From: a virus
DNA: 24,596 bases
Reading direction: 5' to 3' (one strand)
Virus record (IMG/VR): IMGVR_UViG_3300043420_000050
Coordinates: 1-24,596 of that record
The notes under the pieces were generated by a model that worked only from the letters and a program-made list of their open reading frames with translations, had not been told where the DNA came from and did no database searches. This document shows positions 10,819 through 19,120 of the stretch, piece by piece. Each line of letters starts with the position of its first letter. Within the stretch, counting starts at the first letter, position 1. The translations under genes and the position numbers were made by a program.

Positions 10819-12587
10819 ACACCCATACCCAGAGCATCTTGCATATTATTAGCATAATTTTTAGTTCTCAATTTAATCCACTGCTTATACTGCCCAAAAT
10901 TTCTGGTGCTAACAAAATCATAATACAATCTCATTTCATTATTAATTTCTTTTTGTTTTGTTATAGAGTATAACACACTTTCTTTCAATAGGACTTGTTC
11001 ATAAAATAACTTGTAAAAATTTATTTGAGTTGCTCCAGTTTCATATGAAGTTTGAACAAGAACTCGTTCACATAACAAAGCGACATTATTCAAAGCAAAT
11101 GGATATTTTTTATTCGGACTTCTTTTAACCGCTTCTTCTTCTGTTAAAGAAATACATTCCTTAACTTTTTTGGTTTTACTCTCTTCTTTAAAAAGATTGT
11201 CTGCTATAAAATTTTTTGTTTTCAAAAGCAAACCAGGATCCGATATAAGATTATCCAAAGGTTCAAAATTTTTATTGATGCTGGTAATTTTTTTATCCAA
11301 AATTGTCAATACTTGATTCCATTCATTAACCGACATTGACGAAGTATTCAGCACTTGTTTGAAGTCACTAGTAACTTGTGATTTCTTAGATCCAGCTAAT
11401 AGTTTTCTCAATCCTCTTATAGGATACAGAGTTCCTTTACTACTATATTTGTTATACTCCATAGCAGAAGAAGCTATCATTCTCTGCCCAATCTGAGAAG
11501 ACCTAGCATTTGATGCTATACTTTTAAACCACTTATGTACTTCTGCTTCTCCACCAGGAAATGCTGTCTGGAATTTAACTGTTGCTGTAGAAGATCCTCT
11601 CATCTGTGATTTAACACTAATCTTCAACGGAGTATTTCTATTACCATTAACAGCAATTTTATAATCAATCAATGCTTCGTTAGCTGCTTCTGGCAAATAA
11701 ATTTCAACCTTAGTAATCCTTTCTTCTTCTGGCCACCCAACAACATCTTTTATAATCTTATTGTTAGAAGACAAAAGTTTAGATATTTTTAGAACAGAAA
11801 GAACTTCAAAAAATTCTGACGACATATCTGGTGCCACACCAAGTTTATCATCTAAAGTATTATTATTCCATGAGTTAGAAACCGCCTCAACATAACTCTC
11901 TCTAAGATAGTTACTAGTAAAAATACTGTTAGAATCTGGATGATTAATAAAAGATATAACATTATTATAAAATTGCTGAGGACTTAACCACACATCAGTA
12001 ATTTTTGGACTAACGTCTTTTGGTTTTAATGAAGATAGCTTACCACTACTTTCCGCTTTACCAGCATACTTCAATGAAAAATTGTAATTGATTCCAGTTT
12101 TTTTAGTTACAATGTTACCCTTCTTATCTAAAACTTTATAAGCATAAAATGATTTAATAACTAAAGTTGGGTTTTTGCCACCAGCTAATGTGTGTAACTT
12201 GATCTCTGTTATATTTAATTTATTTTTGATACTTTTAGAATTAACGAAGGAGATCATATCCTGAATGAATGACGCTCTAGGAGTTCTAAAGTTCAAAGCA
12301 GAATATTTTTGATTTCCATTATCACATGTCATCTTGTAATTATATGTGATGGAACTCTTTCCTTTGATAACCGCTTCAATCTCGGTTAGAGTTCCGTCTT
12401 CGTCTACATCCTTACTACCACCCTCTATAATAAAATCAAAACCATTCGTTTCATTGTATTGTTTATTAAAAGCATATCCAGCAGCAACATGAACGAGTCT
12501 CAGCATCCTTCTAATTCTTGTTGCTGGAATATCAATATCAATATAGTTGTCAATGTTTCTTTGTTCTTTTCGTAAGTCAAATGCCAT
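10815..12587 (-). CDS. Large unknown protein, 590 aa, coupled to the ligase/nucleotidyltransferase fusion
   Basis: I do not recognise this protein. It begins MAFDLRKEQRNIDNYIDIDI, with a mixed alpha/beta N-terminal half in which two segments follow a similar beta-rich plan (TEIEAVIKGKSSITYNYKM near residue 80, and DYKIAVNGNRNTPLKISVKS near residue 320). The second contains an acid followed by a strand ending in I-S-V-K-S, which resembles the (D/E)XK region of restriction-type nucleases. This is weak. The C-terminal 200 residues are helical and Lys-rich. Its codon choice looks more AT-rich than gp41 or nrdA, suggesting separate acquisition. The start shares a base with the upstream fusion gene stop (TAATG), so the two proteins are likely partners; the next gene overlaps as ATGA. 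Confidence 0.85.
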   Translation of the reverse strand: MAFDLRKEQRNIDNYIDIDIPATRIRRMLRLVHVAAGYAFNKQYNETNGFDFIIEGGSKDVDEDGTLTEIEAVIKGKSSITYNYKMTCDNGNQKYSALNFRTPRASFIQDMISFVNSKSIKNKLNITEIKLHTLAGGKNPTLVIKSFYAYKVLDKKGNIVTKKTGINYNFSLKYAGKAESSGKLSSLKPKDVSPKITDVWLSPQQFYNNVISFINHPDSNSIFTSNYLRESYVEAVSNSWNNNTLDDKLGVAPDMSSEFFEVLSVLKISKLLSSNNKIIKDVVGWPEEERITKVEIYLPEAANEALIDYKIAVNGNRNTPLKISVKSQMRGSSTATVKFQTAFPGGEAEVHKWFKSIASNARSSQIGQRMIASSAMEYNKYSSKGTLYPIRGLRKLLAGSKKSQVTSDFKQVLNTSSMSVNEWNQVLTILDKKITSINKNFEPLDNLISDPGLLLKTKNFIADNLFKEESKTKKVKECISLTEEEAVKRSPNKKYPFALNNVALLCERVLVQTSYETGATQINFYKLFYEQVLLKESVLYSITKQKEINNEMRLYYDFVSTRNFGQYKQWIKLRTKNYANNMQDALGMGV

Positions 12588-14362
12588 TAGGACATACCTG
12601 CTAGTACTGCTTGGATATACATTTTCTTAAATTCCTTATCGTTCTTAACTGCTTGAGGTAACCCACTTTCAACCGTAGCAAAGTCACCTTCCACAATTGC
12701 TTTACGAACTTTACTGGCAGACATTCCAGATACATCATCAGCATCAGGATCTCTAGTGCCAGCACTCTTGATCTCAACAGTATTCATGTTGTAGTCTTTA
12801 CCATTATACTGTTTGATAAACTGGAATGCTGGTACACGATCAGAACCAACTACAAAGATAGCATCAGTATATCCTTCACTTTCCAACCACTTCAATGCTT
12901 TGATAGCATCACGAATGTCTTCATTTAGGATAAGATTTTTCTGGTGAGAAGGAAACATCGCTTTCATAAGAGTAACTTTCTGAGCAGCGGTCAAAGGGTT
13001 CTTTCCTTTTTTGTCGGTGGTATGACTAGGGAACACGTAGTAATCATTACCAGCAGCATACTCCTTGACTTTATTTATTAGTAGCTCATGACCCGTGGTA
13101 GGAGGATTGAAACGACCGAAGGTGAATACAGCAACCTTGGCACCGTCACCAACAGGAGGACGCCAGGACTTCTCAAGCGTGAAGTTAGCACGAGAGAACT
13201 CAAGACGATCAACGATCTTGACTGCCTTGCCATCAACGATGGCAACGAAACCTTCAGGTTTAGTCACCACAAAGTTGTCACCACTACGAAGGAACACACG
13301 AGTATCGCTGAGACCAGCAAGTTTCAGATTGATCAGGTTCTTGGCATTCGTGAAAGAGTTATACATCACAATGAATGCTTTGAATGCTCGATGGTTGTTC
13401 TCTAGATACGAGATACCGTCAGCAAGAATGTCACGATACTGTGCCTTAGACTTTTCAGTTTTTAGACTCTCAATCTTCTCTATCAGGGACTTCTCAAACG
13501 CTTTCGTGAAACCGCTGATGAAAGCATTTACGTTCGTGATGGTCTTACCTTCTTTCACGTAGGAGTTCGTGAAACGCTTCATCGTATAACCAAGCGTGAA
13601 TTGCTTTCCTGCTTCATGGGAGATCAGTTCAAGAAACTCCTTAGCAGTAGAAGCATTTCGAGAAACAACAGAGATAACAGACTTCAACACACGCTCCTCA
13701 GAAGGTGTGAGACCAGACTTGGCGCTGATGTTATCTACAGTAGCAGTCGCCAGGAATACGTTACGAGTGGATTTGAGGTTGAAGCGATCAACCCCGAAAC
13801 CAGCAGACAAAGTATTTACAGGACCAGTACCGCTGTAATAGGTATGAAATACAGCACCGATCTTAGCAGTATTTACTGCCTTGCCCAGATCGCTATCCAC
13901 AGGCCAAGCATACGTTAGAGTGTTAGGGGTAGCAGTATAGAAACGTTCTCCATCGATAATTTTCGTCTGAACGTCTTCATCCGTAAAGAGAAGGTCTCCT
14001 TGGATAACTCCCTTGATCTTGAGTTCGGGGAAATACTTCAGACAATACTTCAGTTTCTTAGCGAGGTCAGGGATCTCTCCATGGTTTTTATCAATATCTT
14101 CTTCAGTAAAATTGATCTTCGGTTCTTTCTTATTGAATACAGACTTGGTGCCTACAAAGAAGTTACCGCTCTCTGGGTCGATGCCACAAACCACAGCAGG
14201 AGCGCCGTCCCATTTGGTAGTAACCTTTACGTTACCAGTGGGACGACCACCAAGTTCATCTATAAAGTTTTGAATTAGGTCCTTGGAAGCGATGTATCCA
14301 TTATATCCATAATTAATTAACTCATCTTCCAGGTGCTCCAGGTGCTTATTCTGGGTTGCCAT
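12587..14362 (-). CDS. RNA-ligase-like domain fused to a HIGH-family nucleotidyltransferase (NMNAT-like)
   Basis: The protein has 591 residues and two domains. The N-terminal about 400 residues carry covalent nucleotidyltransferase (RNA/DNA ligase) motifs in order: motif I TTKWDGAP with the candidate adenylated lysine K50, motif III-like GVIQGDLLF near residue 117, motif IV-like PEGFVAIV and motif V-like KAVKIVDR. From about residue 410 a second domain begins VAVFTFGRFNPPTTGHELLI, the (H/T)XGH nucleotidyltransferase signature (H425). It ends with GMSASKVRKAI, the ISSTXXR-like motif of NMN adenylyltransferases and relatives. The first domain would seal or adenylate RNA or DNA; the second would transfer AMP or CMP to a small substrate such as NMN. 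The joint substrate is unknown. A late-type promoter box lies 20 bases upstream. Confidence 0.85.
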   Translation of the reverse strand: MATQNKHLEHLEDELINYGYNGYIASKDLIQNFIDELGGRPTGNVKVTTKWDGAPAVVCGIDPESGNFFVGTKSVFNKKEPKINFTEEDIDKNHGEIPDLAKKLKYCLKYFPELKIKGVIQGDLLFTDEDVQTKIIDGERFYTATPNTLTYAWPVDSDLGKAVNTAKIGAVFHTYYSGTGPVNTLSAGFGVDRFNLKSTRNVFLATATVDNISAKSGLTPSEERVLKSVISVVSRNASTAKEFLELISHEAGKQFTLGYTMKRFTNSYVKEGKTITNVNAFISGFTKAFEKSLIEKIESLKTEKSKAQYRDILADGISYLENNHRAFKAFIVMYNSFTNAKNLINLKLAGLSDTRVFLRSGDNFVVTKPEGFVAIVDGKAVKIVDRLEFSRANFTLEKSWRPPVGDGAKVAVFTFGRFNPPTTGHELLINKVKEYAAGNDYYVFPSHTTDKKGKNPLTAAQKVTLMKAMFPSHQKNLILNEDIRDAIKALKWLESEGYTDAIFVVGSDRVPAFQFIKQYNGKDYNMNTVEIKSAGTRDPDADDVSGMSASKVRKAIVEGDFATVESGLPQAVKNDKEFKKMYIQAVLAGMS

Positions 14363-14524: not shown

Positions 14525-15199
14525 TTAAAATGAGTTGACTTGCTGTACCTTAGATCTGGGTAAAGGAGGTTTACAAGAACTTCTAAGTTTATATATGAAA
14601 AACACTAAGGTAAGTCTAGGTTCTTCACCAACAATAAAATTAGATTCTTTGTGAAACTCCATTCCAGAATAACAAATCAACCGATTATATACATTCTTAA
14701 CATCAATAGTTTTTTCAAATTGTTCGTGAAATTTTTCTTTAACGTCAAGATAGTAATCAACATCTACAGGCTCATTAGCATATAAAAGATCTCTTGTATC
14801 AGATAGATCACGTATTGTTCTTTCTTTTACTTGCCTGTATATTGAAGTGCCAGCATCAGGATTTGAATTCTTATTCAAGTAGACTAGTCCAGCAAGAGGA
14901 ACTTTCAAATCTTGATGAACCCAACCAGTATTTATTTCGGGTGGTCCTTCATATGGATATATTTTTTGGAAATGTAATGCCATCTCACATTCGACATAGC
15001 AGTTTTCTCCAAAAAATAATCCAAGAATCTTCCTAACAAATTGATCGTAAAACGACGGATTAATATTACGAAGATAGTCAGTTCTAACGCCAGGGTAGTT
15101 ACCAGATATTTTAGAGTATTCCAAAGAGAGTCCGTATTCACGGACTTCATCTGGATTCTCAAAGAAATCATCTACAACTGATGCTGGAATAAACTTCAT
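14525..15199 (-). CDS. Probable 2-oxoglutarate/Fe(II)-dependent oxygenase (DUF6445-like)
   Basis: The product has 224 residues. The middle part contains the facial-triad pattern: TGWVHQD gives H95 and D97, EFHKES gives H183, and EEPRLTLVFF gives R195, placed 12 residues after the second His, where these enzymes bind 2-oxoglutarate. Between them lie PLAGLVYLN and DAGTSIYR, typical of the double-stranded beta-helix. I recall this layout from the DUF6445 group, in which members occur near flavin-dependent tryptophan halogenases in some bacterial clusters; I have not checked this. A halogenase homologue lies two genes upstream. The substrate is unknown. The start overlaps the mazG stop as TAATG, and the tRNA follows at once. 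Confidence 0.75.
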   Translation of the reverse strand: MKFIPASVVDDFFENPDEVREYGLSLEYSKISGNYPGVRTDYLRNINPSFYDQFVRKILGLFFGENCYVECEMALHFQKIYPYEGPPEINTGWVHQDLKVPLAGLVYLNKNSNPDAGTSIYRQVKERTIRDLSDTRDLLYANEPVDVDYYLDVKEKFHEQFEKTIDVKNVYNRLICYSGMEFHKESNFIVGEEPRLTLVFFIYKLRSSCKPPLPRSKVQQVNSF

Positions 15200-15605: not shown

Positions 15606-16997
15606 TTAGATAACGAATTTAGAAAATTTATCTAGGCGAGATTGTTTAGAAGAAACATCTTCAAACGTTTCGAACGTGTCTTCATCTTCAGTATTGAGGA
15701 TGTTGTCTCCGTCCGAATCCTCAACATTATACAGCTTCATCTTTGCTCTGTCAATACCCACTGTAAAACGTCGGAAGTAAGTGGGATCGTTGTATCGATT
15801 CTTAAGTTGTTTAACCATAATCCTACCAGACTGTTCAAGTTCCTCAGTGGAAATGAGAGCAAACATAAAATCTGCTGTGGCAGGAAGACCAAAGGATTCA
15901 GAAGTGTCGGTGAGATCAACGTCACTATTACCAAAACCAGACCTAGTAGTTTGAGTTGCTGATACAACTGGTACGTCATTCTCAACAGCAAGACCCCTGA
16001 GTTCCTCTGCAATTGCTTTAACATACGTATAACTGTTTACGATGTGTCCTTTATATCTGGACGAAGCACAGATATTTAGATAATCGATGAAGATAATATC
16101 TGGTTTGAAATATTTCTTCAGTGACAATTCATTGAGAAGTCCTTTGAAATGACCAGCGTGGGCAGAGGCGGTAGGATACTCTTTGATAATCAAACGACCT
16201 TGAGTTTTCCTACCGATCTCAGCAACTCTAGAAGTAAATATCTGCTCAGGAATAGAACCAATATCTTTGATATTAACGTTGAGAAGGTTGGCATCAATAC
16301 GCTCAGCAATCTTCTCCTCTGCCATCTCCATAGTGATGTAGAGAACGTTCTTACCCTGAGACAAACATGCTGCTGCCATATGACACATAAACAGAGACTT
16401 ACCAACACCAGTGCCAGCAAGAGCAATGTTCAGTGTTTTATTAGGCAGACCACCTTTTGTTACAGTATTGAACTTATCAATATCAAAAGGAATTTTAGAT
16501 TCATCCTGGTGATAATAATCATAACGTTCGCCAGCATTCTCAACATAATCGTGACCTACATGTTCGTCGAACGATACTGCCAGGGCCTCTTGTAGGATTG
16601 CTGGGATAGCGTCCTTCGATACCTGTTGATTGCCTCCGTCCGCAATCTTGATTGATTCGAGTAGAGCGAGATAGATTGCCCTGTCCTTACACCACTTCTC
16701 CGTTGTGTCAAGCAACCAGTTATATTCAACTGCCGTGTCCTCAAACGACTTGAGCGTTTGAACAGCAGATTGATAAGATTCTTCAGTAATATCCTTCCTA
16801 TTTTGAAGGTCGATAATGATAACTTCCGAAGTAGGTACAGTGTCGTAATTGCTGGCAAAGTTCCAGACTTCTTCGTAGATAATTCTTTCATGATAGTCTT
16901 CAAAATATTCAGGTTTTACAAACGGTACTACCTTTCGATAAAAGTCTTCATTGAAGAGAAGATTCCTGAGAATAGTTGATTCAATTTTTTCCGTCAT
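15606..16997 (-). CDS. 41: Replicative DNA helicase, T4 gp41/DnaB-like
   Basis: Gp41 is the hexameric 5'-3' helicase that opens the fork and binds the gp61 primase. The 463 residues contain an N-terminal helical domain (1-150), a linker and the RecA-like motor. Walker A is GTGVGKS at 195-201 (ALAGTGVGKSLFMCH), and Walker B is IIFIDYLN at 301-308. A conserved TQTTRSGF stretch follows, then a basic motif KNRYNDPTYFRRF. The C-terminal tail is acidic (DSDGDNILNTEDEDTFETF). The length matches T4 gp41 (475). The start lies 17 bases inside the end of the halogenase-like gene, so it is coupled to it. Confidence 0.95.
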   Translation of the reverse strand: MTEKIESTILRNLLFNEDFYRKVVPFVKPEYFEDYHERIIYEEVWNFASNYDTVPTSEVIIIDLQNRKDITEESYQSAVQTLKSFEDTAVEYNWLLDTTEKWCKDRAIYLALLESIKIADGGNQQVSKDAIPAILQEALAVSFDEHVGHDYVENAGERYDYYHQDESKIPFDIDKFNTVTKGGLPNKTLNIALAGTGVGKSLFMCHMAAACLSQGKNVLYITMEMAEEKIAERIDANLLNVNIKDIGSIPEQIFTSRVAEIGRKTQGRLIIKEYPTASAHAGHFKGLLNELSLKKYFKPDIIFIDYLNICASSRYKGHIVNSYTYVKAIAEELRGLAVENDVPVVSATQTTRSGFGNSDVDLTDTSESFGLPATADFMFALISTEELEQSGRIMVKQLKNRYNDPTYFRRFTVGIDRAKMKLYNVEDSDGDNILNTEDEDTFETFEDVSSKQSRLDKFSKFVI

Positions 16998-18117
16998 TCA
17001 TTACTCCTTCGTACCAATTTTTAAAGCTCCAGAATGACCACTGCCCATAACTATGTTGAGTAAATAAAGGATGCCTAATTTGATCACAAGAACTAATCTT
17101 TGATTGTTCTAAAAACTTATCAAAAATTTCATCTTCTACATAAAGTTTTTTACAGTAATTCCAAAAAGGTGTATTATATTTTGATCCATTCTGATAATGC
17201 CACAATATAAATCTTTCCAGATTTTTAATGTAAACTCTCATCATGTCTTCAGCTTTCTCAAGCGAAATTTTATTAGCAACGATAGCTTGAAAAGACAGCG
17301 TTGCCCATTGTTGATATGCTCCTATAGAAGTAGATTCCAACGGTTCTAAGAAAAACATTTTATTGCCATTGAATAAAATATTACCTTTATAAAAATTGTT
17401 AGTGACATAATTTTTAAAAGAAAATTTTGATGTAACTTCGACATCAAACATTTCTAGCATGTTTTTCTCTGCTGCATCTGGATTGGTCTTTTTATTATTA
17501 TACAAATAACCAACAGAATATGGGTATGAAGTAGAATCTTCTAGAGTAGGGATAATAAAGCACCACCCATCTGGAGTTGCTACACATCTAGTCCACGGTT
17601 TTGTAAATACTTCTTTTGGTTTTCCAAGAATAACCGAATTAAGTGGATTAACTAAGTCAGTATATCCAGAGTAATCAGATGGTTTACCAGTACAATCAAA
17701 AACATAATCGGAATCTATCTCAGATACCTTTACATTCTCCTGCTCTCTTACTTTAAAATACCCAGAGTTTAAAATTACAGATCTAGTTTCTTTTGGAGAC
17801 AAGTGTAAAGCATGGGTGTCTAAAGGAAAATCGTGGAAAATTGTTTCAGACTTCCCCCAGTTCTCATACAAAATACCTTCTTTGGGAATAGCTTTGATCT
17901 CATTAGTATACCAATTTGTTCCCAAGGTTTGCCACAAAAGTCTAGGTTGAGATGGTATAGTTGCTTGACCAACTAATTCATGTTTCTTATTTGGATCATG
18001 AATCATCTCAACTTCGACGCCATAGGATTTCCCATGATAAGCATAATATAAAGCGGTAATACACCCAGCGTTTCCAGATCCAACGACTGTTATTTTTTTA
18101 TTCGTCGTCAGTGCCAT
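16981..18117 (-). CDS. Short flavin-dependent tryptophan halogenase homologue (PrnA-like)
   Basis: The 378-residue protein has the FAD-binding loop GSGNAG (13-18) and GQATIPSQ (50-57, usually G-E-A-T-X-P). K79 aligns with the catalytic Lys79 of PrnA. E261 lies in FLEPLEST and aligns with the catalytic Glu. Departures are notable: the WXWXIP signature reads GWCFIIP (184-190), and the residue after EST is Ser (ESTS) instead of the Gly that helps bind chloride. It is also about 130-150 residues shorter than classical tryptophan halogenases. It could halogenate an indole, or work as a related monooxygenase. It starts 20 bases inside uvsX and ends 17 bases inside gp41. Its codon use is AT-rich compared with both, pointing to insertion of a foreign gene into the operon. 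Confidence 0.8.
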
Positions 18118-19120
18118 AGAGAAATTCCTTTTGTGCTTGTTTATCTAGTTGCTCCAGAACTTCTGGAGTAAAGTAAGTCTCTGGTTCTTTGAGGATCTGC
18201 TTAGCATAGATCTTCTTGCCATCGATTTCATATCGACCAGCAACGTTCTTCCACATCCCTGCTCGCTCACCTAATTCTAGCAGACCGTAGTATCGCTCCA
18301 GTCCCCTAGCATCGAAGAACAACCGTGTCTCGACCTTAGATCCCTCACGAGTCAGACGGGACTTCTTCGCCTCACATTTAATAATGTTTCCGACCAGATC
18401 GGTTCCGTCTTTCTCTTTCTTTTTAGAAAGGAAAACGATGGTAGAAGCGGAATACTTGAGACCAACTCCCCCTCCCATTTCTTTAGTTGGGACATAAGCT
18501 CCGATAACATCATAGGTGTGATTAGTAACCAACATTGGAATGTTAGCCTTACCAAGCTTAAGTGTCAACACTCGGAAAGCACCCTTAATAAGTTGTGATT
18601 TCGTCATGTCACGAACTTGCTTGTCATTAGAAATGTCTTCCATTTCCTTAGAAGAAGATAACATTCCCAAAGAGTCTAACACAAACATCAATGGTTGACG
18701 TTCATCTTTAGGTTGTTCTAAGTATTTGTCCACAATACGGATCGCCTGAGTTCTGAACTCCTCAATGGTATCCACAGGCATAATAATCATACGTTGAGAA
18801 TCGATGCCACGACTCTCAATCATGTCCTTAGAAATAGCAGACTCCGTTTCAAAATAAATGACTCCAGCGTTGGGATCACTATCAAGGAAAGAACGAACAA
18901 CAGAAAGACAAAAGAAAGTTTTGCCTGTGCCGCTTTCCCCTGCCAAAGCTGTAATCTTGTTCGAAGGGAATCCACCAAAAATAGATCCACTAACAAGGGC
19001 GTTAACCATATAACTACCAGTGTCAATGAAAGATTCAATATCACCAGCAGCGATCCCATCGCTAACAAAGCTAGCGTATTCATTTTTGCTGTCTTTAATT
19101 ACAGTATCTAGAAAATTCAT
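18098..19120 (-). CDS. uvsX: UvsX, RecA-like recombinase
   Basis: UvsX forms filaments on single-stranded DNA and drives strand exchange and recombination-dependent replication in T4-like phages. The 340-residue protein has Walker A GESGTGKT (61-68) within [20 protein letters not shown], and Walker [11 protein letters not shown] (143-152). A probable DNA-binding loop lies around [19 protein letters not shown], and an L2-like region near [12 protein letters not shown]. The acidic C-terminal end (LYGTDDE) also fits RecA relatives. The length is close to T4 UvsX (391) minus part of the C-terminus, as usual in cyanophages. It follows gp43 by 1 base and is overlapped by the halogenase-like gene. 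Confidence 0.95.

Follow-up and report, generated by a model that had tools for sequence, protein, structure and literature searches.

In RebH the indole ring is sandwiched by H109 and F111 (PMC4917012), and W466 of this enzyme is equivalent to F443 of BrvH, a halogenase that halogenates indole and refuses tryptophan (PMC5945002). VirX1 of cyanophage Syn10, the sole characterised viral halogenase found in the literature (PMC8407142), has no helical lid and shows a broad scope (PMC7948982). Lid loss is known from both BrvH and VirX1, which are active on indoles or bulky substrates (PMC5945002, PMC7948982, PMC8269204). A PrnA table of 2010 lists short (1104-1167 bp) and long phage forms together (PMC3037559), and no paper separating the compact forms from the long ones was found in our literature search, outside which most subscription journals lay.

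The window analysed here is a stretch of viral DNA of 24,596 nucleotides (IMG/VR record IMGVR_UViG_3300043420_000050). Its DNA polymerase shares 77% identity with the polymerases of Synechococcus T4-like phages, and the window is therefore taken as a fragment of a cyanomyovirus-like genome. A single 378-codon open frame on the minus strand (positions 16981-18117, with the ATG at 18117 and the end of the stop codon at 16981) matched the Pfam profile PF04820 (3e-33; 115.8 bits, well above the gathering cut-off of 21). The 378-aa protein also matched PHROG 2928, 'tryptophan halogenase' (8e-67). The gene product belongs to the PF04820 superfamily of flavin-dependent halogenases, of which it is a compact viral representative.

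The gene is preceded by uvsX (18098-19120; PHROG 97, 3e-101) and followed by the gene of the gp41 DnaB-like helicase (15606-16997; PHROG 19, 2e-134); these neighbours and all sites and motifs given below for the gene lie on the minus strand. Direct reading of the sequence showed an overlap of 17 bp with the start of gp41 (16981-16997). The overlap with the end of uvsX is 20 bp (18098-18117), where the ATG is located within uvsX codons (TATGGC). An AAGGAA sequence within uvsX (18125-18130) and an AAGGAG sequence within the halogenase-like gene (17004-17009), both read directly, are the likely ribosome-binding sites of the halogenase-like gene and gp41, respectively. With its start codon inside uvsX and the probable ribosome-binding site of gp41 inside its own end, the gene keeps the overlapping layout. 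The GC content of the gene is 33.3%, compared with 39.9-41.7% for uvsX and gp41. The first-pass annotation had described an AT-rich, overlapped gene inside a replication operon, and these data agree with that description. The gene was more AT-rich than its own flanks in 74 of 76 relatives. AT-richness was therefore rejected as a sign of recent foreign origin, for which it is weak evidence in a family that is AT-rich throughout.

Relatives of the protein fell into two length classes, one of 359-399 aa and the other of 455-530 aa. In an IMG/VR scan, relatives were found to be encoded by at least 591 loci, and relatives were also held by 59 annotated phage records, mostly of cyanophages, none of them more than 48% identical. 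A search of IMG/VR with the S-RIM4 sequence as the query gave no match. In a maximum-likelihood tree, the compact and long forms were split with a support of 100/99, and the window protein was placed inside the compact clade; the protein of Campylobacter phage CP21 (399 aa), which has a long branch, grouped with the long forms. Besides this clade support, the window protein has the length of the clade (approximately 360-400 aa), the sequence WxFxIP, the deletion between HxF and the next strand, and a GSKYDTPFW-like motif. On the aligned sequences, WxFxIP is a mark of the compact clade of T4-like marine phages.

The tree bears on the idea that the protein is a VirX1-like small-molecule halogenase of broad scope, whose halogenated indoles or released HOX would shield the infected cell or change the chemistry within it. 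The PHROG common to the query and VirX1, the loss of the lid in both, and the halide-rich habitat are consistent with this idea, and a protective role of phage PrnA has been proposed in the cyanophage literature, where it is called speculative (PMC2984593). However, VirX1 falls in a separate clade with long branches between, where the Syn10 sequence taken as VirX1 in the tree and in the long-form comparison was its paralogue CPUG_00132, and the WxF sequence is unlike all of the long phage forms examined. We regard this explanation as unlikely. In the Syn10 locus (L009, 5230-8335), VirX1 is CPUG_00131, annotated as a 'hypothetical protein', and the paralogue CPUG_00132, the gene before it, is the one annotated as a 'tryptophan halogenase'.

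Several other loci of the compact type were observed. A gene for a 369-aa protein near that of S-ShM2 in the tree (L274, 4682-5791) is found in a BD1-7 clade bacterium (Spongiibacteraceae), beside malate-dehydrogenase-like and ttcA-like genes. Because this copy lies in what is apparently a true bacterial chromosome, the compact clade is perhaps not purely viral. An archaeal origin was rejected for three further copies labelled archaeal (L270, L271, and L275), which share genes with phage loci and are probably mis-binned phage contigs. One viral contig (L003, 8913-11089) carries a tandem pair of compact halogenase-like genes.

Conservation was counted over 81 distinct sequences of compact length, CP21 among them. 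The FAD-binding GxGxxG (residues 13-18; 18064-18081) has G13 and G15 in all 81 sequences and G18 in 80. K79 (17881-17883), the catalytic lysine, aligned with RebH K79 and was present in all 81 sequences and in all long forms. In the alignment, the sequence FLEPLESTS (residues 256-264; 17326-17352) contains E258 (80/81) and the catalytic E261 (78/81, Gln in the other three), which aligned with RebH E357 (PrnA E346). The FAD loop (G13xG15xxG18), K79, and the EPLEST glutamate (F256-L-E258-P-L-E261-S-T-S264) that the first-pass annotation had reported were thus all found. On the other hand, the meaning that it attached to a lysine at exactly position 79 did not hold. The aligned lysine lies at residues 70-101 in the relatives and at 79 only in the window protein, and the number is a matter of chance; the window protein is slightly extended at its N terminus, with residues 2-6 missing in at least 78 of the 81 sequences. 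H95-x-F97 (17827-17835) is the equivalent of RebH H109/F111 in the alignment, with H in 74 and F in 79 of the 81 sequences. G13, G15, K79, D137, W185, F256, P259, and W319 were invariant. In addition, FLEPLE (residues 256-261) matched FX[DE]PX[EFL], cited as a flavin-dependent halogenase motif (PMC8407142), and ATIPS (residues 52-56; 17950-17964) has the same letters as the first five of ATIPSL, the Trp1 motif in PrnA (motif table in PMC8269204).

The nearest relatives are only approximately 46-53% identical to the query, and the retention of the catalytic set at this distance points to strong selection on it. It is very improbable that the protein is a flavoprotein that has decayed or has no catalytic function, its gene being passenger DNA. 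The protein is shorter than the characterised enzymes, and E261 is replaced by Gln in three relatives. In contrast, the frame is intact, related loci number in the hundreds, the catalytic residues are near-invariant, and the fold is confidently predicted.

Three positions depart from PrnA and RebH. The WxWxIP motif is absent from the window protein, where W185-C-F187-I-I-P190 (17548-17565) takes its place; F187 was found in 80 of the 81 sequences, the sole exception being CP21 with Trp. The Gly after EST is replaced by S264. This position was occupied by Ser in 61, Ala in 18, and Gly in 2 of the 81 sequences, and Ser after EST is also found in PDB 9luq (EPLESTSI). The motif Fx.Px.Sx.G was consequently unmatched: F256, P259, and S262 are there, and its last residue, S264, is not Gly or charged. 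Q51 (17965-17967) aligned with RebH E49, the glutamate of the VGE(A/S/G) motif. Here, Q was counted in 74, E in 6, and S in 1 of the 81 sequences, and E was seen in all long phage forms examined; a literature search on this glutamate (PyrH E46) found no statement of its role. The first two changes had been read correctly in the first-pass annotation, which treated them as altered residues of this gene. The changes are real; they are not peculiar to the gene, WxF being clade-wide and Ser present in 61 of 81. A one-off 'altered' enzyme is ruled out, as the changes are common to the clade. The E-to-Q change in VGE(Q)AT and a conserved C-terminal Trp, described below, were absent from that annotation.

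The first two of these changes speak against halogenation, and the main rival explanation is an FADH2-dependent monooxygenase that has the scaffold of a halogenase but does not halogenate. Without the second Trp and the halide-loop Gly, the substrate and the peroxide would meet near the FAD, which would lead to hydroxylation or oxidation. WxWxIP has been suggested to prevent monooxygenation (PMC8407142, PMC5945002), Phe replaces its second Trp in 80 of the 81 sequences, and residue 264 is not Gly in 79. Nevertheless, K79 is invariant and the lysine is essential for halogenation, the K83A mutant of BrvH being dead (PMC5945002); moreover, some active flavin-dependent halogenases, e.g. Bmp5, halogenate without WxWxIP (PMC8407142). 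Fe(II)/2OG-type oxygenases fill the same gene slot in other phages, as detailed below, but this pattern may mirror only the abundance of 2OG genes. We consider a monooxygenase possible but rather doubtful.

A structure model was built with AF2 from 47 aligned window and IMG/VR sequences (pLDDT 90.1, pTM 0.89). All 50 matches listed by Foldseek against the PDB were flavin-dependent, mostly tryptophan, halogenases, and no lycopene-cyclase-like or other flavoprotein group was among them. In VIA-align comparisons, 348-364 of the 378 residues were aligned to full-length variant A halogenases with Z of 28-35. The corresponding Z was 27.1 for VirX1 (343 residues aligned) and 25-26 for CndH and CmlS. 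The profile search and structure prediction that had been proposed as checks thus both returned the halogenase family, with no better match to another flavoprotein family among the matches listed; PF04820, PHROG 2928, and the best matches of the model agree with the claimed halogenase-family fold and catalytic Lys/Glu.

The RebH sequence used for comparison (530 aa, identical letter for letter to PDB 2e4g) is 152 residues longer than the window protein, close to the shortening of approximately 130-150 residues estimated beforehand. The deleted parts correspond to RebH residues 91-104, 121-165, 198-213, and 234-242 and to everything after approximately 480. The long loop with Y454, Y455, and E461, which forms the tryptophan amino/carboxyl clamp, is replaced by a short loop. 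The Trp4 lid/clamp YYxxF...NFW...YY in its group A form is absent, only the Trp at the W455 position being left. This residue is W360 (17038-17040; 74/81). The structural alignments end at model residue 375 against PrnA 470, 374 against RebH 480, and 375 against BrvH 458. As these three end registers agree, W360 probably falls on PrnA W455, RebH W466, and BrvH F443; sequence alignment alone places it elsewhere. In the model, the active site looks complete but unusually open, with the lid and the amino-acid clamp lost and the catalytic pair kept.

The family and clade of the protein, its fold, the conserved catalytic residues, and the lost lid and clamp were computed here, and for the chemistry of FADH2, O2, and halide we draw on characterised enzymes. 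From the fold and residues and this analogy, we estimate an even chance that the protein is a two-component reduced-flavin halogenase whose open pocket takes an indole-like group carried by a bulky substrate. A host flavin reductase would supply reduced FAD, which would bind to the enzyme and react with O2 to give the C4a-hydroperoxide, which bromide or chloride would attack to form HOX. The HOX would then pass to K79 with the assistance of E261, and an indole-like ring sandwiched by H95/F97 and W360 would be halogenated by electrophilic substitution. Since the lid, the amino-acid clamp, and a segment of approximately 50 residues are lost, the substrate is probably bulkier than free tryptophan; our guess would be a side chain of a peptide or protein, or a host metabolite, bearing an indole or similar ring. 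The halogenase reading is weakened by the Phe at the second Trp of WxWxIP, the Ser/Ala at the halide-loop Gly, the Gln at the VGE Glu, and the Gln at E261 in a few relatives, a change reported to inactivate another halogenase (PMC8407142). It also counts against this reading that no flavin reductase was recognised within the window. Both alternatives offered by the first-pass annotation, a halogenase with a new substrate and a non-halogenating monooxygenase, are therefore retained.

The uvsX/gp41 junction was surveyed in phage Sf-FR1 and in 80 IMG/VR loci whose gp41 is related to that of the window; 78 of these showed both genes. The two genes overlapped or nearly touched in 56 of the 78, including the closest relative (L110, gp41 91% identical), and were separated by an insert of approximately 480-915 bp in 22. 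Twenty inserts were scanned: 13 matched 2OG-FeII_Oxy_3, four Asp_Arg_Hydrox, two 2OG-FeII_Oxy_5, and one a DNA methylase, so that 19 of the 20 were Fe(II)/2OG-type oxygenases, belonging to three Pfam families. Within the sample, only the window carried a halogenase at this junction. In T4-like marine phages, the overlap (L110-L189) was also observed to be a cargo slot for a single gene. At the control junction gp41/mazG, inserts were found in 14 of 73 cases. The ten scanned there comprised one long halogenase (L129), two DUF6445 proteins (one below the cut-off), two 2OG oxygenases, an S-adenosylmethionine synthetase, an S-adenosylhomocysteine hydrolase, and three without a match. It is suggestive that the uvsX/gp41 slot mainly houses O2-dependent enzymes. 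The pattern is only suggestive because cyanophages often carry 2OG oxygenases in any case (76 of 153 genomes; PMC10452541) and the inserts are not independent events. A more far-reaching reading, in which the clade is a dedicated viral macromolecule-modifying enzyme whose lid was removed and which acts on a phage or host protein by halogenation or oxidation of a tryptophan (or a ring like it) exposed there, interchangeably with the Fe(II)/2OG-type oxygenases of the slot, seems to us quite unlikely.

Two other genes of the window were noted. The DUF6445 protein encoded at 14525-15199, whose gene is AT-rich like the halogenase-like gene, has HxD and a distal Arg and resembles an Fe(II)/2OG oxygenase; it also matches PHROG 1644, 'minor coat protein'. 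DUF6445 homologues occupy the gp41/mazG junction in two loci (L123 and L175). A direct link of DUF6445 with the halogenase-like gene was rejected: it also occurs in Sf-CH8 and Syn10 but is probably too common to be informative. A 591-aa protein (12587-14362) joins DUF6267 to a cytidylyltransferase-like domain.

Elsewhere, among 88 compact genes with neighbours, 30 lay downstream of gp23, 37 upstream of gp3, and 11 near nrdB. A capsid-linked function, which the gp23-gene-gp3 position in about one third of the loci might suggest, was not supported; in an independent sample drawn from other lineages, a halogenase was found at none of 73 gp23/gp3 junctions.

Marine T4-like phages carry the compact clade in abundance, and from 2010 on its genes have been listed under PrnA without being distinguished in any paper found. 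Its minimal, open active site, with the catalytic pair kept and the supposed anti-monooxygenase Trp replaced, amounts to a natural experiment on the roles of WxWxIP and the lid, and its short scaffold could serve to halogenate bulky substrates. Should a protein prove to be the substrate, this would represent a new kind of viral protein modification.

Among known systems, PrnA, RebH, and PyrH share with the query the fold (Z 28-32), GxGxxG, K79, the EPLEST Glu, and the indole-sandwich residues. The query differs from them in having no lid/Trp4 clamp, no counterpart of RebH 91-104, 121-165, and 198-213 or of the C-terminal 50 residues, and in the substitutions W to F, G to S, and E49 to Q. BrvH (PDB 6FRL; Z 33.0) and the group C halogenases have, as does the query, a short loop for the tryptophan lid and an open pocket, whereas BrvH is full length and keeps WxWxIP (PMC5945002). 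VirX1 (CPUG_00131; PDB 6QGM), a viral iodinating halogenase, shares with the query the superfamily, the PHROG, and the missing helical lid, but is 530 aa long and belongs to the long-form clade. The compact phage 'tryptophan halogenases' (T4-like GC 212 / PHROG 2928) form the same clade as the query. Named members are those of Synechococcus phages Sf-CH8, S-ShM2, S-SSM5, S-RIM4, and S-SSM7, Cyanophage P-TIM40, and Marine virus AG-345-E15. Like the query, they have 359-390 aa, the same deletions, WxFxIP, the K79 lysine, and [ED]PxE/Q; they are 24-48% identical to it and, unlike the window gene, occupy another genome position, most often downstream of gp23 and never at uvsX/gp41 in the sample.
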